Assembly: GCF_012222305.1 (NCBI RefSeq)
Contig: NZ_CP035730.1
Location: forward strand, 2,630,945-2,694,944
Direction: 5' to 3'
Length of the DNA: 64,000 nucleotides
Source of the DNA: Sulfolobus sp. S-194
GTDB lineage: Archaea > Thermoproteota > Thermoprotei_A > Sulfolobales > Sulfolobaceae
Shown here: piece by piece, positions 8,428 through 28,511 of the stretch
How the letters are laid out: every line of letters begins with the position of its first letter
How positions within the stretch are numbered: position 1 is the stretch's first letter
Made by a program: the position numbers and the translations under genes
The notes under the pieces: generated by a model
Told to the model about the DNA's origin: nothing
The model's input: the letters and a program-made list of their open reading frames with translations, nothing else
Database searches by the model: none

Positions 8428-9555
8428 ATGAATAAAATTACTCTTATATCAGTTATAATTCTTGTTATAGCTTTAGCTATCTATACGTATTATACTGTAA
8501 TTACATTTGGTCCAGTTCAAGGTTATATTGGAGATGAAGTATGGTATCCCACAGCGGCATATAACATATTAAAATTAATATTCCACGTAACGCCGCCAAT
8601 GTATTTTCCTTACTCAAACGAACAGAATATTCAAACTTATATTAATCCAGAACATCCTCCATTAGGAAAATACTTTATGGATATTTTTATTCTTCTTCTA
8701 GGTTATAAGCCATTAGCTTGGAGAATACCGAGCTGGATAATGGGTGATCTAACTGTTATTGTTGCTTATCTCTTAACTAGAAAATTAGTGGGTAGTGATT
8801 TATGGGGTAATGTAGCCGGTCTTGTATCAGCAGCTCTAATAATGTTATCTCCCAACATTTGGGTAATTCATGGAATAGCAATATTAGATGTTTATGTTGG
8901 TTTCTTCTCGTTATTGGCAGTCTATCTGCTCCTTTCAGATAATAGACTTTTATGGGCATCAATAGCCTTAGGTCTAGCCTTTGCTTCAAAAGAGAGTGCA
9001 TTTCCTTTACTCTTACCATTTCTTTTCTATGTAGGAGAGTTGAGAAAAAATCCTATTCAAAGAGCCATATACGGTATAGGGATACCAGCTGCAACTTATG
9101 CTACACTTTCTGTTCCAATTATGGTTTATTTTGGTGGTTTAGATGGCTGGTTTCATAATTCCTTCCTATATATGTTAGGTTGGGATTCAACAAATGGCCA
9201 TATTGCTCTCTCTGCTGTAACTCAAATATCAGCCCCATGGGACTGGTTCTTAGATGTTCATCCATTCTATTTAGGTTATAATTTCTATGCATCTACTAAT
9301 CCAATTTTGATGTGGTTATGGGTAGGAACAACACCCCTAGCCTTTATTCTAAAGGACACAAAATTGGTAACGCTTACAATGTCTGCATGGATAATGTGGT
9401 TAGCATTTGTAGCAATATATTTCCTCGGTAATCACACACTTTTTAGTTTTTACGTTACTGATTTTGCCCCATTAGTAAATACTTATATTTCTGCCTCAAT
9501 ATTTAAAGCATTAAAGAAGGCAGATTTAAAAAACGTGATGAAATATGGTAAATAA
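8428..9555 (+). CDS. PMT/ArnT-like membrane glycosyltransferase
   Basis: The 375-residue protein has about nine hydrophobic segments. Just after the first is an acidic pair in GYIGDEVWYPTAAYN, and then NPEHPPLGKYF. This is the layout of the dolichyl-phosphate-mannose protein mannosyltransferase and ArnT families (GT-C fold), where the acidic residues take part in catalysis and the sugar donor is a lipid phosphate. Donor and acceptor are unknown. It ends inside the next gene (11-bp overlap), so it is translated with the nucleotidyltransferase. It is shorter than PMT proper, which exceeds 600 residues. Confidence 0.75.
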   Translation: MNKITLISVIILVIALAIYTYYTVITFGPVQGYIGDEVWYPTAAYNILKLIFHVTPPMYFPYSNEQNIQTYINPEHPPLGKYFMDIFILLLGYKPLAWRIPSWIMGDLTVIVAYLLTRKLVGSDLWGNVAGLVSAALIMLSPNIWVIHGIAILDVYVGFFSLLAVYLLLSDNRLLWASIALGLAFASKESAFPLLLPFLFYVGELRKNPIQRAIYGIGIPAATYATLSVPIMVYFGGLDGWFHNSFLYMLGWDSTNGHIALSAVTQISAPWDWFLDVHPFYLGYNFYASTNPILMWLWVGTTPLAFILKDTKLVTLTMSAWIMWLAFVAIYFLGNHTLFSFYVTDFAPLVNTYISASIFKALKKADLKNVMKYGK

Positions 9556-10321
9556 AGCTGTAATTACTGCTGCAGGTAAAGGAAGTAGGATGAAATATAT
9601 AACTTCTGTATTACCTAAAGCATTACTACCTCTATTCAGAAATGAAGACGGAAAGACTGTAATGAGACCAGTTATAGATTTAATAATGGATTCCCTTCAA
9701 GAAGTGGGAGTAAAAAAATTTTGCATTGTTGTGGGAAAACATGGAAAACTTTTAATGGATTATCTTTTCGAAAGGGGAGTAACTTTTGTTTTTCAACCAG
9801 AACCTAAAGGCTTCGGTGATGCTGTACTAAGGGCTGAAGACTTTTCAAATAATGATCCCTTTTTCGTTCATGCTGATGATGGTGTGTTGACTGGAGGTTA
9901 TAAAGAAGCAAATTCGTTATTTGAAGAAGTAAAACCTGATGCTATTCTTTTAATTAGAGAAGTTAGCAATCCTAAAAGATACGGTATAGTTTCGATAAAA
10001 GAAAAAGGGGAATATATGAGTCATAAGTTATATATTGTTACACAAGCTGAAGAAAAACCTTTAGAACCGAAGAGTAATCTAGGAATATCTGCAGTATATG
10101 TATTTTCTCCTAAAATATTTCAAAGTTTAAAGAGAGTAATAGTTGAAGAAAACAAAGAACTAGAATTAACATATGGTATTCAAAAAATAATTGAGGATGG
10201 GGGAGAAGTTTATGCCATTAAACTAGAAAAAGAAAAATGGTTAAATGTAGGTGATCCTCAAAGTTATTATGATGCATTAATGTATTCCTATAAAAATTTA
10301 ACTACTACTTTCTCCATTTAG
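9545..10321 (+). CDS. Sugar-phosphate nucleotidylyltransferase (GalU/RmlA-like)
   Basis: It transfers a nucleotide to a sugar 1-phosphate. The signature AAGKGSRM at residues 9-16, followed by LPKALLPL, is the nucleotide-binding loop. VHADDG (metal-binding Asp) and a late KEKWLNVGDPQSYYDA segment also match the family. Length of 258 is typical of GalU-like enzymes. It stands tail to tail with the gene for UDP-sulfoquinovose synthase (17-bp overlap), which needs UDP-glucose, so UTP-glucose-1-phosphate uridylyltransferase is the most attractive assignment. The sequence alone does not fix the substrate. Confidence 0.83.
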   Translation: MVNKAVITAAGKGSRMKYITSVLPKALLPLFRNEDGKTVMRPVIDLIMDSLQEVGVKKFCIVVGKHGKLLMDYLFERGVTFVFQPEPKGFGDAVLRAEDFSNNDPFFVHADDGVLTGGYKEANSLFEEVKPDAILLIREVSNPKRYGIVSIKEKGEYMSHKLYIVTQAEEKPLEPKSNLGISAVYVFSPKIFQSLKRVIVEENKELELTYGIQKIIEDGGEVYAIKLEKEKWLNVGDPQSYYDALMYSYKNLTTTFSI

Positions 10322-11465
10322 TTCTTGGTAATATAGTGTCTTTATATCTTTCTAGTCTCTCTCTATATGGTAATAGATCTTTTATCATGTTCTTTAACTC
10401 GTCTTTTAGATTCTTCTTTGGGTAAAATCCAAGTGATGGTAATACTTTTCTTTCTGGGTTATAATAATGTTCTTCAGCCTCTACTCTGGGGTTAGGTAGG
10501 GGTCCTATTTCTACTTTTAGCCCAAGCTCTTCACCAGCATTTTTCACCATTTCAGCAATTTTTCTTACATTATAAATCTCTGCAAATTGATTAGCTACTC
10601 TATATTCACCTTGATTTGGTGGATGCTCTAAGAGAAGTGTTAAAGCCTCCATACTATCTTCTAGAGATATAAAGCCTCTAGTTTGTCCACCTCTTCCATA
10701 TACTGTTAAAGGAATTCCTAAAATTGCTTGTACACAAAATCTATTTACTACTGTTCCCCAAGTTTCATCAAAATCGAATCTTGTCCTTAAACTTTCATCA
10801 ACAATCTCCTCAGTTCTAGTTCCATATACTGGACCTTGCATTATATCTGTTATTGTTAATCCCCAAAGTTCATGGAAGTAAAGTAAGAAATCAGTATCAT
10901 GTACTTTAGTCCAATGATATACAGAACCAGCTTTTCTAGGAACTATTATCTTATCTTTTTTACCGTTAACTATTGCTTCAACATAAATGCTTTCTGGTAT
11001 ATCAAAGTTAGGTGTCCCATACTCACCCATAGTACCCATCTTTAGTATATGAATTGTAGGGTCTATTTGCTTAACAGCGTAAATTACGTTAAGGGTACTC
11101 ACTTCATTATTAACAACTGTATAGACTGCATGATCCCTATCTTTCATAGAATAGGGAGCAGATCTCTGTTCAGCAAAGTGCACTATTGCATCCGGCTTAT
11201 GTTTTTTCATAATGTCAATTAAAAAATTGTAATCAGTAACATCTCCTATATAAAAAGTAATGTCGACATCTAAATGTCTTTTTGCTTCCCTTACTCTATC
11301 TTGTGGTCTAGGTAATGGAAATGCGGAATCTGATCCTACCTCCTCTGAAAATCTTCTTGTAGAAAGATTGTCTATTCCAATTACTTCATGACCCCTTTTA
11401 GCTAAGCGTAACGCTAATGGCCATCCAAGATAACCATCGATACCTAATATTAAAATTCTCATCAT
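10305..11465 (-). CDS. agl3: UDP-sulfoquinovose synthase Agl3
   Basis: It converts UDP-glucose and sulfite to UDP-sulfoquinovose using bound NAD+. In Sulfolobus the product supplies the acidic sulfosugar of the surface N-glycan. It is an SDR-fold protein: the GxxGxxG motif GIDGYLG is at residues 8-14, the catalytic YHWTK pair follows about 200 residues later, and the segment MGTMGEYG carries the conserved Thr. The DSAFPLPRPQDR stretch is typical of SQD1/Agl3. Size (386) is normal. A 34-bp gap separates it from the divergent hexokinase gene. Confidence 0.88.
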   Translation of the reverse strand: MMRILILGIDGYLGWPLALRLAKRGHEVIGIDNLSTRRFSEEVGSDSAFPLPRPQDRVREAKRHLDVDITFYIGDVTDYNFLIDIMKKHKPDAIVHFAEQRSAPYSMKDRDHAVYTVVNNEVSTLNVIYAVKQIDPTIHILKMGTMGEYGTPNFDIPESIYVEAIVNGKKDKIIVPRKAGSVYHWTKVHDTDFLLYFHELWGLTITDIMQGPVYGTRTEEIVDESLRTRFDFDETWGTVVNRFCVQAILGIPLTVYGRGGQTRGFISLEDSMEALTLLLEHPPNQGEYRVANQFAEIYNVRKIAEMVKNAGEELGLKVEIGPLPNPRVEAEEHYYNPERKVLPSLGFYPKKNLKDELKNMIKDLLPYRERLERYKDTILPRTKWRK

Positions 11466-21284: not shown

Positions 21285-22766
21285 ATGTCAAATAATCCCT
21301 TCAAGTCTATAGATTCTTTGAAACTCTCCTTTAATCACATAAAAATATGGTATACTGCAGGAATGGGTTTTTTTACTGATGCATATGATTTACTAATTAT
21401 AGGTTATATAATAGCTACACTAGAAGGTGCATATAAATATGCTGGGATCGTTATACCAGGATTTACTGAATATTTAGTCGGCCATAACGCAGACTTTTGG
21501 ACAGGTTTGTTAGCATCTTCAGCAATTTGGACAGCAATTATAGGTCAGTTACTGTTTGGTTATTTAGGTGACAGATTAGGAAGAAAGAGTGTTTATGGTA
21601 TTGAAGCATCTATGTTAACACTAGGTGCTTTCCTAAGTGCATTAGCATGGAATTTACCAGCACTTATTGCATTTAGAATGTTAATGGGATTTGGAATTGG
21701 TGGAGATTACCCAATATCTTCAACTATAATGAGTGAATATGCTAACGTTAAAGATAGAGGAAAATTAGTAGCCTTGGTATTTGCTAATCAGGGTATTGGA
21801 TCTATAGTAGCTGCAGTTGTAGGTATTGTGTCAGCCCTAACATTACCACCAGACATTGCATGGAGAGTAATGGCTGGTATTGGTGCAATTCCTGCAGCAA
21901 CAGTTATATATTTGCGGAGAAAAGTTCCCGAGACGCCCAGATATTCTCTCCTCGCTAAAGGAAATATAGAAGAAGCCAAAAAAGCGGCTGAATTATTAGG
22001 GACAAAATTAAATGTAGATAAACGTGTAATATCGAAGAAATTAAGTATTAGCGAGTTCTTTGCAAAATACGGTTTATTGTTAATTGGAACTGCTGGAACA
22101 TGGTTTATTTTAGATATAGCATTCTATGGTACTGGTACATACTCTTCTGCTGTATTGGCTCCAATCTTTGGTAGCCCATTTCCAAACGGTCATGTAACCT
22201 TATCGTTAGCAGATTTTCAAGCAGATTTAGCTAAAGATTTATTTCTAGGTGCAATACCATTCTTAGTTGGTTTCCCTGGATATTTTACAGCAGTGGCGTT
22301 AATGGACAAGCTAGGAAGGAAAGTAATTCAGTTACAAGGCTTCATAATGATGGCTGTAATTTATGGAATTGTAGCATCAATAGCTCTAACTTCTGGAACT
22401 AAAATAACTGGATTTGTAATACCACCAACTTTAGCATTCGCAATATATTCACTATCTTACTTCTTCATAGATTTTGGTCCTAATACAACTACATTCGTTA
22501 TCCCATCTGAGGTTTATCCGGTAAGATATAGAACTACTGGTCATGGAATATCAGCTGCTAGTGGTAAGCTAGGAGCAGCTATAACAACTTATTTATTCCC
22601 AGTATTATTAGCATCAATAGGTATTAAGAATATCTTGATAATGCTAGCAATAGTGAGTATTATAGGTGCAGTACTAACATATTTATTCGTACCAGAACCT
22701 AAACATAAGCCTTTAGAGGAAGTAGCAAAAGAAGAACTAGAAGAAGAGCAAAATGTGCAAAGTTAA
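21285..22766 (+). CDS. MFS transporter, phosphate:H+ symporter-like
   Basis: The 493-residue protein has 12 transmembrane segments and the sugar-porter-like motifs FGYLGDRLGRKSVYG (TM2-3) and MGFGIGGDYPISSTIMSEY (TM4). The long central loop and the late FGPNTTTFVIPSEVYPVRYRTTGHG are typical of the Pho84-type phosphate symporters and their relatives for organic acids. The C-terminus is acidic. It sits downstream of the palindrome at 21196-21230 and may be regulated through it. Exact substrate is inferred. Confidence 0.78.
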   Translation: MSNNPFKSIDSLKLSFNHIKIWYTAGMGFFTDAYDLLIIGYIIATLEGAYKYAGIVIPGFTEYLVGHNADFWTGLLASSAIWTAIIGQLLFGYLGDRLGRKSVYGIEASMLTLGAFLSALAWNLPALIAFRMLMGFGIGGDYPISSTIMSEYANVKDRGKLVALVFANQGIGSIVAAVVGIVSALTLPPDIAWRVMAGIGAIPAATVIYLRRKVPETPRYSLLAKGNIEEAKKAAELLGTKLNVDKRVISKKLSISEFFAKYGLLLIGTAGTWFILDIAFYGTGTYSSAVLAPIFGSPFPNGHVTLSLADFQADLAKDLFLGAIPFLVGFPGYFTAVALMDKLGRKVIQLQGFIMMAVIYGIVASIALTSGTKITGFVIPPTLAFAIYSLSYFFIDFGPNTTTFVIPSEVYPVRYRTTGHGISAASGKLGAAITTYLFPVLLASIGIKNILIMLAIVSIIGAVLTYLFVPEPKHKPLEEVAKEELEEEQNVQS

Positions 22767-22830: not shown

Positions 22831-22838
22831 TATTTATA
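22831..22838 (+). promoter_or_regulatory. TATA-like promoter of the S53 protease gene
   Basis: tatttata is centred 29 bp before the ATG at 22864, as expected for a leaderless Sulfolobus gene. No ribosome-binding site is seen. Confidence 0.5.
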
Positions 22839-22863
22839 TCTAGCATTTTTGTAATAAACAAAT

Positions 22864-25800
22864 ATGAAAAGTGTTTTATCTATACCTGTAGTTGTTATAA
22901 TATTATTTAGTATAATAACTATAATATCACCAATAAATGGTTTTTCTGCAACTTATATGGGACCTCAGTTAAAGGGAGTAAAAATAGGTTCTCTACCTAA
23001 AAATATGGAGATAACTATAGGTTTTCTAATTCCTCCAAAAAACTTTAACTTACTATATTTAACAGCAGAAGAAGTTGCTAATCATCAGATTAAGCCAATC
23101 TCATTTAAACAAGTTATGAAAGAGTTTGCACAACCAGAATTAAAAAATGAAGTTGTAAATTATTTAGTGTCTCATGGCTTTACTATTTCTGTACAAACTC
23201 CTTTTGTAGTTATAGCCGAAGCTCCAGTTTCTGTAATTGAAGAAACTTTTCACACTACCTTGGATTTATATAAGTATGGAAACGTAGTATATTATAGGCC
23301 TTCTACAAATCCAACCTTACCCTCATTCTTTGCTGGGATTACAATTAATGGTCTAACTAACTTTACTACTTATAACTATCAATTAAATCTTGAGGTTCTA
23401 GGTAAAGTTGTAAATGGTAAATTAATTCCTAATATGACATTTCCGCAAGTAACTACTTTTCAGTTTGCAGCAGATATGTATTCACCTCAAGATATTATCG
23501 GTGCTTATAATATAACTCAGGGTGGTAATGGTACTACTGTTGCAATAATTGATGCATATGGTGATCCTACAATTTATGAAGATTTACAGATCTTTGATCA
23601 GCATTTCCATTTACCGTCGGTTAATTTAACTATCATTCCTTTAGGACCTTATCATCCACTCTTTGGGTTATTTACCGGGTGGGATATAGAAACTGCTCTT
23701 GATGTAGAGACTGTTCATGCTATTGCTCCTTATGCCCATATAGTCCTAGTAGTCCCATCCAGCGCTGGCTTAATCCCAGAAGCTATTGATTATATTGTTA
23801 GTGAGGATTTAGCTAATGTAACCTCTATGAGCTTTGGAATAATAGAAAATTTAATAGGAGATACGGGATTTTACTTCGTATTTGACGGAGTTCTAATGCC
23901 CAACTTGCCTTACTGGGATTATTATTTTGCTCTAGGTACAGTTGAAGGAATTTCATTTTTTGCTGCTAGTGGAGATGAAGGCGCCTATGGTGGAACATTA
24001 ACAACATATGGTGGAGTTTCTTATCCTTCAACTTCACCCTTTGTAACTAGTGTTGGCGGAACTTCACTTTATGTAAATGTAACTTCTGGTTATCTATCTG
24101 CTCAGAACTCTAGTGCTACATATGGTTTTGAGACTGGATGGAGTATATTTAACTTAGATTTTCCATTTATAGGAAGTGATGGAGGTTATAGTACTTATTA
24201 TCCAAAGCCGTGGTATCAGTACATGATTAATGGTACTACCAGGGCTACGCCAGACGTTGCAGCTGATGCTAATCCATATACTGGTTTGCTAATATATGTT
24301 TTGGGTCAAGAAGAGGTTATAGGAGGAACCAGCTTAGCTACACCTATATGGGCTGGAATAGATGCAGATATTGTTTCAATTGTTCATAAACCATTAGGCT
24401 TATTTAACAATATTCTCTATTGGATATATTCTAACTCTACATTATATAACCAAGCATTTCACCAAGTAACGTTCGGATTTAATGGATTATATTCAGCACA
24501 TTCCGGATATAACTTAGTAACTGGTTTAGGAACTCCTGACTTTTACGGTTTATTAAAGGCTGTAGAAGATTACTTTAAACAACCTAAATTGGGAATATCT
24601 GTTACTGCTTTAGAGTCTGGTGTACCTTATCCGTGGTTTATGTATAATACGACTTTTGAAATTATTGCCAAAATTAGTTATCCAAACACTACAATGGTTA
24701 CTAGCGGATCTTTCTCAGCTTATATATACACAACTCAAGGGTTATTGTCTAAAGTACCATTAGCATTTAACGGAACCTATTGGGTAGGGACATATACTAT
24801 CTCACCTGGAAATCCGCCTAACATATGGCTAATAGTTGTTAATGGAACTTCTAATGGCATATCTGGGACTGGGGTTTACGAAATAACTGTAGGTCTTTCA
24901 ATAGATATCATTTCACCAATACCATTCCCGTTTGAAATAACTATACCTCCAAATGAGCCATTTGAAGTAGCTGCATGCATATATTATCCCAACTTAACTC
25001 CAGTAGAATATCCTTCATTCACAGCATACTTTATCCATAATAGTAAAAACATATTTAACGTAACCTTATTACCAACTAGAATTCCAGGATTATATGAAGG
25101 TATCTACGCTTTAGTAACTCCAGAGCCAGAAGGAGTTTATTTAATGTATATTAATAATTCTTATAGTTCTACATATATGTATGAGACCTTTGGAGGAATA
25201 AACATTGAAACACTTGTCTTTACTCCTATCGATGATGGATTTTCTTCTGTCTCACCTGGAGAAAACATAACTATATTCTCATTTACTTTTGATCAGAATG
25301 GTTTAGCTATTTTTACCTCTAATGCAACAGCATTTATCTACAATCCTCAAGGAAAACTTATTGCTAAAATACCACTAAAATTAGCATTGGATATTGTACA
25401 ATTTGGGAATATAATTGCTTTTGGTTTTCATGAGGCTAACTATACAATTCCATTAAATTCAACGCCCGGGATATATACTATAATAACTGAGGCGTGGTAT
25501 AATAGTTCCATAGGTGTTGAAGAATTTAATTATACAGACTTTATTTATGTCTCTCCTTATGTTATTCACACTCAAGTAAAATATGAGGGTAATGCAATTG
25601 AAGGAGAAAATATAGCAGTCTATGCTAATATTACCTATCCTAATGGCACGGAAGTAAAGTATGGTGAGTTCCAAGCTACATTAGTACCATCAGAGTTACA
25701 ATTTGAACAATTAACACTAGAATTCTACACTGAAATACCATTACAATATAATTCAACATTAAATGAATGGATAGGTGTCCTTTCGGTTCCTTCAATAAAT

Positions 25801-26766
25801 TCAACAAACATATACCAAGGAGCCCCACTTTACTTCTTAAGCGGTCCATGGTATTTAGAAGTTAGCGGCATTTCGCCAGAAGGTGCTATCACAGAGTCAA
25901 TTAACAACTTACTTTCAGTTCTTCCTTATACTGATATAGGTTCAAAAATAATTACTCCTATTAACGCAACTAGTGTGGGATTTGCTTATCAAGGGAATAC
26001 AATAGAACTCACCCAGATATATTCGCCCTCATTAACACTTATGAATGGTAAATACATATTAAATAACGTAATTGTAAATGAACTCATTATTAAGAATTCT
26101 ACTGTTACAATCATAGATTCTAAATTAAATAACGTAGAAACATATTCATCAAATGTAAATATTGTAGATAGCGAAATATCCGATACAGAGACTGGAATAA
26201 GTAGTATGTCGTCAAATATCACATTAACCTCAGTTACTTTCAGTAATGTTATTTATGCAATTAACCAGAGCGTAAATACTAATGTATATCTGCACGGTGT
26301 TAATCTAAATAATGTAACTACTTTAAGCTCAGTGCCAGCACCTAATATAGTTTCATATCCTGCTAATATAACTACTTTAACAAATAATATTACTTTATCT
26401 ATAAGCGGAAAGTATCTAAAGGTTATAAACGTGAAGGTAAATGGTAAGAACGTATCCTATTCTGTTACTCCGACAACTTCTGGGATAGATATAACTATTC
26501 CATTTAATTCTGCTTTATTACCCGCTGGAAACAATATAATTAGTATAGCAATTTCTGATGGTATAGAATATAATTACACATTAGTTGTGTATAATAGTTA
26601 TCCATTAATTCAAGTCCATTCAGCAATTAATGCCTTAAATTCATCAGTAACAAGTCTTAAGTCTTCATTATCAACTACGACAGATATATCAATAATTGGA
26701 TTAGTGATAGCTTTAATTGCAGTTATTCTTTTACTTCTACTCTTCAGAAGGGGTGGGAGAAGATGA
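22864..26766 (+). CDS. Secreted S53 (sedolisin/kumamolisin) protease with C-terminal anchor
   Basis: An acid-active serine protease. A signal peptide (about 1-28) leads to a pro-kumamolisin domain (about 40-175) and the catalytic domain (about 195-575). The catalytic Glu276 and Asp280 lie in ETALDVE, and Ser490 in GGTSLATP. The late GLGTPDFYG fits the calcium-binding end of the domain. Some 700 further residues of beta-rich, Asn/Thr-rich repeats follow, with many N-glycosylation sequons, and a final membrane segment (about 1274-1294) ends RRGGRR. The protein should be displayed on the cell surface. Its stop overlaps the next gene by 4 bp. Length (1300) is far above the usual 550-650. Confidence 0.9.
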   Translation: MKSVLSIPVVVIILFSIITIISPINGFSATYMGPQLKGVKIGSLPKNMEITIGFLIPPKNFNLLYLTAEEVANHQIKPISFKQVMKEFAQPELKNEVVNYLVSHGFTISVQTPFVVIAEAPVSVIEETFHTTLDLYKYGNVVYYRPSTNPTLPSFFAGITINGLTNFTTYNYQLNLEVLGKVVNGKLIPNMTFPQVTTFQFAADMYSPQDIIGAYNITQGGNGTTVAIIDAYGDPTIYEDLQIFDQHFHLPSVNLTIIPLGPYHPLFGLFTGWDIETALDVETVHAIAPYAHIVLVVPSSAGLIPEAIDYIVSEDLANVTSMSFGIIENLIGDTGFYFVFDGVLMPNLPYWDYYFALGTVEGISFFAASGDEGAYGGTLTTYGGVSYPSTSPFVTSVGGTSLYVNVTSGYLSAQNSSATYGFETGWSIFNLDFPFIGSDGGYSTYYPKPWYQYMINGTTRATPDVAADANPYTGLLIYVLGQEEVIGGTSLATPIWAGIDADIVSIVHKPLGLFNNILYWIYSNSTLYNQAFHQVTFGFNGLYSAHSGYNLVTGLGTPDFYGLLKAVEDYFKQPKLGISVTALESGVPYPWFMYNTTFEIIAKISYPNTTMVTSGSFSAYIYTTQGLLSKVPLAFNGTYWVGTYTISPGNPPNIWLIVVNGTSNGISGTGVYEITVGLSIDIISPIPFPFEITIPPNEPFEVAACIYYPNLTPVEYPSFTAYFIHNSKNIFNVTLLPTRIPGLYEGIYALVTPEPEGVYLMYINNSYSSTYMYETFGGINIETLVFTPIDDGFSSVSPGENITIFSFTFDQNGLAIFTSNATAFIYNPQGKLIAKIPLKLALDIVQFGNIIAFGFHEANYTIPLNSTPGIYTIITEAWYNSSIGVEEFNYTDFIYVSPYVIHTQVKYEGNAIEGENIAVYANITYPNGTEVKYGEFQATLVPSELQFEQLTLEFYTEIPLQYNSTLNEWIGVLSVPSINSTNIYQGAPLYFLSGPWYLEVSGISPEGAITESINNLLSVLPYTDIGSKIITPINATSVGFAYQGNTIELTQIYSPSLTLMNGKYILNNVIVNELIIKNSTVTIIDSKLNNVETYSSNVNIVDSEISDTETGISSMSSNITLTSVTFSNVIYAINQSVNTNVYLHGVNLNNVTTLSSVPAPNIVSYPANITTLTNNITLSISGKYLKVINVKVNGKNVSYSVTPTTSGIDITIPFNSALLPAGNNIISIAISDGIEYNYTLVVYNSYPLIQVHSAINALNSSVTSLKSSLSTTTDISIIGLVIALIAVILLLLLFRRGGRR

Positions 26767-28511
26767 GTAAGCTAGGTAAATTCTTTCTCTCTCTGTTTTT
26801 AATTTCTATGTTGTTTTTCCCTATTCTAGTTTCCAGTGCACCTACTGAAGTAAACTATCAACACCCATATATACCACTTAACATAACCTTACCCAACTAT
26901 CTTGATCCGAAGTATTATTCTTTTGAAGCATATCAGATAAAGCCACCAACTAATGTTACCCCAATCATAATACCTGTTGCCGTAAATGCAACATTTAATA
27001 ACACTGGTTTAATGCCAATTGTGAAGAAAATCTACATTCCTCCAAGTAATTATAGCTTAATTTTAATGAATGTGTCTATATGGGAGAATAATGGTGCTCA
27101 ATACGATAGAGCTGCTTACATATTCGTTAATGGTGTTCCAGTATTCTGGGGATCTACACAAGAACTCGCTAACTCTTCTTCACAAGTGGATTTAACACTA
27201 TTTGAAAATCTCTTAAAAGGTAATGTAACGTTCCAATTGGTAATTGAGAATTTCTATGATGCTAAAATAGGAATAACTGGCTTATATCACATGAACGTAA
27301 CATTAATCTTGTATCCTGGTAATAAGCCAAAAGGTTTACCAAATATGTTTATACCACTGTATTTAAGTAAATATAATTACTCTTACATAATATTGAATCC
27401 AGTGAGTCCTAGTATTACACAACAAGTTACCATACCAAATGGGACTTATAAGATGGAATTACTTCTTTATGAAGAGGGAGGAGGTTTAGACGAGTTCTGG
27501 TACACTAATGAACCCGCAACCAGGAGTATTCTTATTTACTATGATAACTTACTAGCTGGTGTAGTTAATCCTTATGAGACAATTTATACTGGAGGAATAG
27601 ATTTATTCTGGTGGAAGCCATTAACGTCAATAAACACATTATCCTTCCATTCACCAATTGTAATTGATCTAACTCCAATGTTAGCTTACGGTTTAACTGC
27701 AAATATAACAACTTGTGTGACAAACTTATTAACAGCCTATCAAATTACGGGGAGTACAGCATTTGATTGGGATATATCTGGCGTTCTAATGCTATGGGTC
27801 AATCAATCAAACCCATTAATGTTGGCAAAACCATTAACTTCAATCTCAAGATTCATAGACTCAACGCCTATATTCTCAACCGGCTTTTCAGCTGGGTATT
27901 ATCAAGAAGATGGTAATTATCTATTAAACTACTCATCTCTGCTAACATTTGAACATGGAAAAGAGCTTGCTTGGACATTACAAGTAGGTAAATTTGTTGC
28001 CTATCAAACCTTTAACCAAATTTTTGAGAAGGCATACCTTGATGAAAGATTTTATGAAGTCTCAGTGGACAAGGGAATTTATAACTCAACTTTAGTTATA
28101 TCTGGAAACTATCCTGTATTATTAGATTTTAGTGCTATTGCAGTACCAATTTCCAATCCACATGTAATACCATATAATTTATCCTATTTCCAAAATGGTA
28201 GTTTATCTCTTGGCCTAGAATATTACTACGAGTACTTGTTTAACGATTACAATACGACAATAAAAACCATGGAGAATCTAACAGCAATAGGAGGTTTCGG
28301 AGGTATTATTGAAATCATAAATTCTTATGGCGGAGCTATATTGGTTAAGCTTACTGCAAACTATGCAAATACACAAAAGAACTTGACAACATGGTTTTTA
28401 GTAAATAATGAAGGATATAAAGAAATCTTTTCAGCACAGGGAATGCAAAATAGTACAACTAACTTAACTGGATATTATAGGTATGTACACATAAGTTTTT
28501 CATCAAGTTAA
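26763..28511 (+). CDS. Secreted PNGase A-like peptide N-glycosidase
   Basis: It resembles the plant and fungal peptide-N4-(N-acetyl-beta-glucosaminyl)asparagine amidase A family, which removes N-glycans from glycopeptides at acid pH. Family landmarks are [12 protein letters not shown] (around residue 240), a following [19 protein letters not shown] and FWWKPL, and [12 protein letters not shown] signal peptide (about 1-25) is clear, and there is no C-terminal anchor. ATGA overlap with the S53 protease gene implies one operon. Together they would strip and digest glycoproteins outside the cell. Activity is inferred from the family. Confidence 0.8.

Follow-up and report, generated by a model that had tools for sequence, protein, structure and literature searches.

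Two adjacent genes on the + strand of the window, the 64,000-nt stretch of Sulfolobus sp. S-194 DNA analyzed here, encode an S53 acid protease and a homolog of peptide N-glycanase A (PNGase A). They probably constitute a leaderless two-gene operon with which the cell digests N-glycosylated proteins outside itself under hot, acidic conditions; the protease would act first and the PNGase would follow. Within this explanation, we infer the activity, the order of action, the substrate and the nutritional purpose. Both enzymes are members of known families by sequence and fold. What appears to be new is that PNGase A has an archaeal branch, and that this branch is joined to an S53 protease in a near-obligate operon.

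The synthesis of N-glycans in archaea is well studied. For their removal, no description was found in the literature searched, and the PNGase A literature (including PMC12381499) names plants, fungi, Acidobacteria, Actinobacteria and Proteobacteria, with archaea not named. Literature searches, with many subscription journals outside their coverage, returned no archaeal PNGase and no paper describing an archaeal PNGase A-S53 operon. If confirmed, the pair would explain how N-glycans of the archaeal kind are taken off by archaea themselves, which is directly testable because the conserved operon is also present in the genetically tractable S. acidocaldarius. The operon could in addition supply glycan analysis with a useful PNGase, one that works in hot acid.

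The S53 protease and the PNGase A homolog

The first open reading frame (ORF; 22864-26766, + strand, ATG start) encodes 1300 residues, a length for which the label "giant" given by a first-pass annotation is fair. Pfam, sequence matches, alignment and hydropathy identify the product as the precursor of an S53 (sedolisin/kumamolisin-type) acid serine-carboxyl protease, predicted to be surface-anchored. Its main hydrophobic segments by hydropathy are an N-terminal signal (∼residues 1-30, with the signal peptide placed at ∼1-29, 22864-22950) and a C-terminal segment (∼1267-1299) preceding RRGGRR, within which a transmembrane anchor (∼1267-1295, hydropathy 3.39, with a model helix at 1274-1295) followed by a basic tail is predicted (26662-26763). 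Between them lie a pro-kumamolisin activation domain (PF09286, E 5.8e-16; residues 39-166, 22978-23361) and the catalytic domain (residues ∼204-570, 23473-24573), which matches sedolisin with E 1e-22 and kumamolisin with E 1e-18. The Glu/Asp/Ser triad and the oxyanion Asp typical of the family are complete, consisting of E275 and D279 (E-x3-D), S490 within GGTSLATP, and D370, and none of the four is lost from any paired S53 homolog aligned. The signal, pro-domain, catalytic site and C-terminal anchor described in the first-pass annotation are thus all found.

The catalytic domain is followed by a stalk of ∼700 residues (∼581-1254, 24604-26625), mostly β-sandwich. In an AlphaFold model of residues 581-1300 (pLDDT 74.7), the stalk comprises tandem β-sandwich/MG2-like domains, a β-helix-like segment and one more β-sandwich; structural matches liken the run of β-sandwich domains to macroglobulin and Ig-type domains, and Pfam gives a weak MG2 match. 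The protein is accordingly modeled as a protease head on a stalk. Residues ∼1046-1170, which are strand-rich and have high model confidence, are read as β-helix-like by their strand pattern; this stretch lies near the membrane end of the stalk and could bind glycans.

This architecture brings to mind thermopsin-like Saci1846/M164_1049 (PMC12207459), and the S53 protein might likewise be mainly a structural S-layer anchor, with its PNGase partner incidental. The stalk and C-terminal membrane segment (from the model and hydropathy) would suit such a function, and S. acidocaldarius SlaB is among the middling structures matched by the model of the stalk (rank 41, with Z 9.8 and rmsd 32.9). We regard this as very improbable, given the catalytic residues kept in all paired homologs examined and the presence of the pro-domain in the window protein, and it would not explain why the partner is almost always an enzyme from a degradative family.

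The second ORF (26763-28511, + strand, ATG start) encodes a 582-residue homolog of PNGase A (predicted EC 3.5.1.52), and overlaps the S53 ORF by the four bases ATGA. It contains a PNGaseA domain (PF12222) at residues 75-350 (E 1.1e-30; 107.1 bits against a cut-off of 25.3), and hydropathy indicates an N-terminal signal-like segment and no second membrane segment, as would suit a secreted enzyme. The ORFs and the PF12222 match therefore agree with the first-pass annotation, which had ATGA joining the gene for an acid protease to that for a secreted PNGase A homolog. The only significant sequence relative among solved structures is PNGase Bb (9VLA, solved with a glycopeptide; phmmer E 7.8e-9, profile search E 9.6e-12), with which it has in common the motifs G-x-QYDR, G-T-QE, DE-x-W and Y-x-GG...W-x-P. 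In the window enzyme, alignments place QYDR (Q113-R116) and GSTQE (G130-E134) at 27099-27164, and DEFW (D243-W246) at 27489-27500. Across 43 archaeal homologs D115, D243 and E244 never vary, and PNGase Bb has them as well, so the presumed key active-site residues of PNGase A, whose absence the first-pass annotation would have taken as a refutation, are in place. In PNGase F, the catalytic Asp60 lies within Trp59-Asp60-Arg61 (PMC12753239), for which Tyr114-Asp115-Arg116 is the natural counterpart; D115 would be equivalent to Asp60, and E244 to Glu206 of PNGase F. The catalytic role of E244 is presumed from conservation and homology.

Comparison of folds points in the same direction. The AlphaFold model of the PNGase homolog, built from six sequences, has a low mean pLDDT of 53 and was used for fold ranking only. 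The best 10 Foldseek chains are all PNGases or PNGase-fold entries, and the same holds for the top eleven entries in VIA alignment (Z 13.6-15.0, with the next row at Z 11.1), in which 230-251 residues are aligned with an rmsd of 3.6-4.6 Å for 10 of the 11. The two-jelly-roll PNGase catalytic fold is thus recovered, on a low-confidence model. The matches include PNGase F (1PNF) and zebrafish Ngly2 (9LWG) (Z 13.7-15.0, ∼245 residues), both of which contain an analogous (W/Y)DR motif but belong to different Pfam families (PF09112/PF09113 for PNGase F) and are not detected by sequence. Pfam, sequence and fold matches all agree with the identities first proposed for the two enzymes.

Operon signals and distribution of the pair

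A TATA-like box (∼TTTATATC; 22832-22839, + strand) is located 25-32 nt before the S53 start codon, which fits a leaderless transcript, and a Shine-Dalgarno (SD)-like GGGGTGGGAG (26748-26760, + strand) lies ahead of the PNGase start codon, still within the 3' end of S53. The region upstream of S53 is near-identical in three congeners. Across 33 pairs, a TATA-like motif occurs 18-42 nt upstream of S53 in 26 (11.3 expected from shuffles) but at that distance upstream of PNGase in only five, while a SD-like motif precedes PNGase in 29 (7.4 expected from shuffles) and S53 in one. A leaderless first gene and a SD-led internal gene are the usual pattern in Sulfolobales, and from these signals S53 and PNGase look like a two-gene operon. 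The upstream MFS transporter gene (21285-22766) was excluded from the unit, since it lies beside the pair in only two genera.

PF12222 proteins are encoded in 33 of the 398 Thermoproteota genomes sampled, and in all 31 Sulfolobaceae genomes of the collection. In every one of these 31, PNGase directly follows a close S53 gene on the same strand, the spacing ranging from -20 to +8 nt and usually being the 4-nt overlap, a recurrence that argues against a chance arrangement. The genes are therefore paired in relatives, and the other outcome that the first-pass annotation had named as refuting it, unpaired genes in relatives, did not occur. Beyond Sulfolobaceae, S53 is adjacent in four of the 14 other sampled PNGase-bearing loci: two in the genus to which the Caldisphaera locus belongs (L032 and L039, the latter with a gap of 110 nt), one in a second genus of the same family (L031) and one in a more distant family (L059). 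In two congeners of L031 the genes are apart, with a paired-type S53 (48% identity) kept ∼0.4 Mb away.

Among 197 genomes of the order, PNGase is present in 36 of the 37 with a paired-type S53 and in 14 of the 160 without (p = 9e-27, a value that ignores shared ancestry); the one paired-type-S53 genome lacking PNGase is 75% complete. The paired S53s cluster as a single clade that excludes the other four S53 paralogs in the host genome. S. acidocaldarius carries both families. A second S53, similar to the paired type but located away from PNGase, is found in two Sulfolobaceae genomes (G325:C1:2155322-2158882 and G244:C1:2748075-2751878, with 42% and 35% identity to the window S53, respectively).

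Two suggestions regarding the origin of these genes were discarded. A viral or plasmid origin of the pair is without support, because no relatives of the PNGase were found in IMG/VR viral contigs or plasmids, and neither S53 nor PNGase has a match in PHROG or NCBIfam. Transfer of PNGase beyond Thermoproteota, first suggested by a locus labeled Euryarchaeota (L069), was dropped because L069 belongs to the same genome as a sampled Sulfolobaceae species; the contig title 'Euryarchaeota archaeon CPBay_Spr30G08_79' is misleading, and PNGase has an identical location in G398 and G708. A Marsarchaeota contig (L074:3335-9381) contains a thermopsin gene, a disrupted gene for PNGase A and what looks like part of an amino-acid permease, possibly reflecting a swap of partner from S53 to thermopsin.

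Substrates and order of action

The best reading of the pair is a glycoprotein-degrading system, as had been proposed in the first-pass annotation, a role supported by the identities of the enzymes, the presumed active site and the tight genetic coupling. The N-glycans of Sulfolobales, as in the S. acidocaldarius S-layer, are attached through chitobiose (PMC2948927), which is the linkage that PNGases cleave, and PNGase F has been used to release Sulfolobus N-glycans (PMC12042106). Enzymes of the PNGase A type prefer short or partly digested glycopeptides and are poor on intact proteins (PMC12381499). In addition, N-x-S/T sequons number 37 in S53 and 22 in PNGase, compared with 16.4 and 7.2 expected from shuffled sequence, a two- to three-fold excess which suggests that both enzymes are probably themselves glycoproteins. 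This conflicts with indiscriminate removal of glycans from folded glycoproteins by the PNGase, and together with the substrate preference of PNGase A suggests that the protease probably acts first and PNGase second.

The first-pass annotation had envisaged the reverse order, in which PNGase strips intact glycoproteins and opens the chain to the protease. Sulfolobus surface proteins are densely glycosylated (PMC2948927), and the operon layout implies co-expression, both of which would favor such a sequence of events. We nevertheless consider it improbable, since a PNGase A would act poorly on the intact substrate and the two sequon-rich partners would be stripped too; wholesale stripping of folded glycoproteins ahead of proteolysis is unlikely.

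With the protease acting first, S53 would be exported and lose its pro-domain at low pH, and from its membrane-anchored stalk would cut proteins near the cell. The co-expressed, soluble, secreted PNGase A would then act on the glycopeptides so produced, hydrolyzing their GlcNAc-Asn amide bond to give chitobiose-based glycans and Asp-containing peptides, the latter usable by other peptidases and by peptide and amino-acid transporters. Likely substrates would be glycoproteins with chitobiose-linked glycans of the Sulfolobales type, namely surface proteins either shed by the cell itself or belonging to dead neighbors.

The surrounding genes lean towards feeding or recycling, since peptide and amino-acid transporters and peptidases occur near the pair or PNGase in several lineages. 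Two oligopeptide ABC ATPases lie just upstream of the pair in L059, a SBP_bac_5 (oligopeptide-type) binding protein and an amino-acid permease lie beside PNGase in L036, and M24 and M19 peptidases and a permease surround it in L058. An amino-acid permease is encoded within ∼9.5 kb in 24 of 45 PNGase loci, compared with six of 40 similarly sized stretches drawn at random from 20 of the genomes sampled, an enrichment inflated by common descent (∼7 of 20 when counted by genus). For the lineage of the window, the closest amino-acid permease is five genes upstream of PNGase. No glycan-uptake or glycan-breakdown genes were found linked to the pair in these neighborhoods.

A different purpose would be self-directed quality control, with the pair trimming and removing S-layer and surface glycoproteins of the cell itself as it grows or divides; old SlaA/SlaB would be cut by the anchored protease, and PNGase would recycle their glycans. 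The Sulfolobaceae carrying the pair include lineages of differing lifestyle, and its universality in that family, together with the predicted anchoring of the protease at the cell surface, would suit such a housekeeping role. The S53 stalk architecture also recalls SlaB and S-layer-associated thermopsin-like proteins (PMC12207459), and S-layer maintenance is kept as a rival because membrane-anchored protease-like proteins serve the S-layer in these organisms. On balance it seems rather unlikely: the S. acidocaldarius S-layer grows by SlaA insertion into gaps (PMC12207459), neither slaAB nor N-glycosylation genes were noticed as linked to the pair in the neighborhoods read, and the recurrent neighbors are peptide and amino-acid transport genes. 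The chitobiose linkage, the substrate preference of PNGase A, the sequons and the peptide-use neighbors lead us to favor extracellular digestion and recycling of N-glycoproteins, with the protease acting first.

A broader proposal, which we put forward tentatively, is that the near-obligate protease-PNGase A unit might be a dedicated archaeal N-deglycosylation system recycling chitobiose-linked, sulfoquinovose-bearing surface glycoproteins of the host or its neighbors, and as such the degradative counterpart to the eukaryote-like core found in Sulfolobales N-glycans.

Related systems and divergent homologs

The window PNGase shares its Pfam family, fold and secretion signal with the PNGase A/PNGase H+ family (PF12222), which includes almond PNGase A, Terriglobus roseus PNGase H+ and PNGase Bb, the last also sharing the motifs described above. 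An acid optimum is expected to be shared as well, PNGase H+ reportedly having a pH optimum of 2.6. Unlike these enzymes, to which its sequence identity is low, it comes from a hyperthermoacidophilic archaeon, is operon-linked to a protease and probably has a sulfoquinovose-bearing archaeal N-glycan as its natural substrate. The S53 partner likewise shares the pro-domain, E-x3-D, oxyanion Asp and GTS Ser with the acid-active sedolisin/kumamolisin family, and differs in its added ∼700-residue stalk, membrane anchor and operon with PNGase.

Multidomain thermopsin-like proteases of Saccharolobus solfataricus, SsMTP and SsMTP-1 (SSO2045, SSO1175), are N-glycosylated and produced on peptide-rich media (PMC3958906). 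They resemble the predicted form of the window S53 in being secreted or surface multidomain acid proteases, but belong to thermopsin family A5 rather than S53, and a PNGase partner has not been reported. Bacteroides PNGases are also secreted or surface prokaryotic enzymes that gain nutrients from glycoproteins, their loci serving dietary N-glycan use (PMC9522356, PMC12381499), but these belong to the PNGase F superfamily and are linked to glycoside hydrolases instead of a protease.

A divergent group of archaeal PNGase A homologs (L040:8593-10413, L049, L054:1261-3036, L057:8998-10761 and L062:4717-6555) keeps D115, D243 and E244, while the Glu of GSTQE is replaced (e.g. GTTAQR, GSTVQR), possibly reflecting a different glycan specificity. 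A search of four of these genomes (L040, L054, L057 and L062) gave no S53 match. Elsewhere, PNGase is encoded as two overlapping ORFs (L073:7914-8585 and 8582-9712, also in L060; L059:8910-9722 and 9640-10761). The split, in Vulcanisaeta distributa and an f52 genome, lies near the boundary of the two jelly rolls and represents either a frameshift or a genuine two-chain enzyme; in a congener (L055) the gene is intact.
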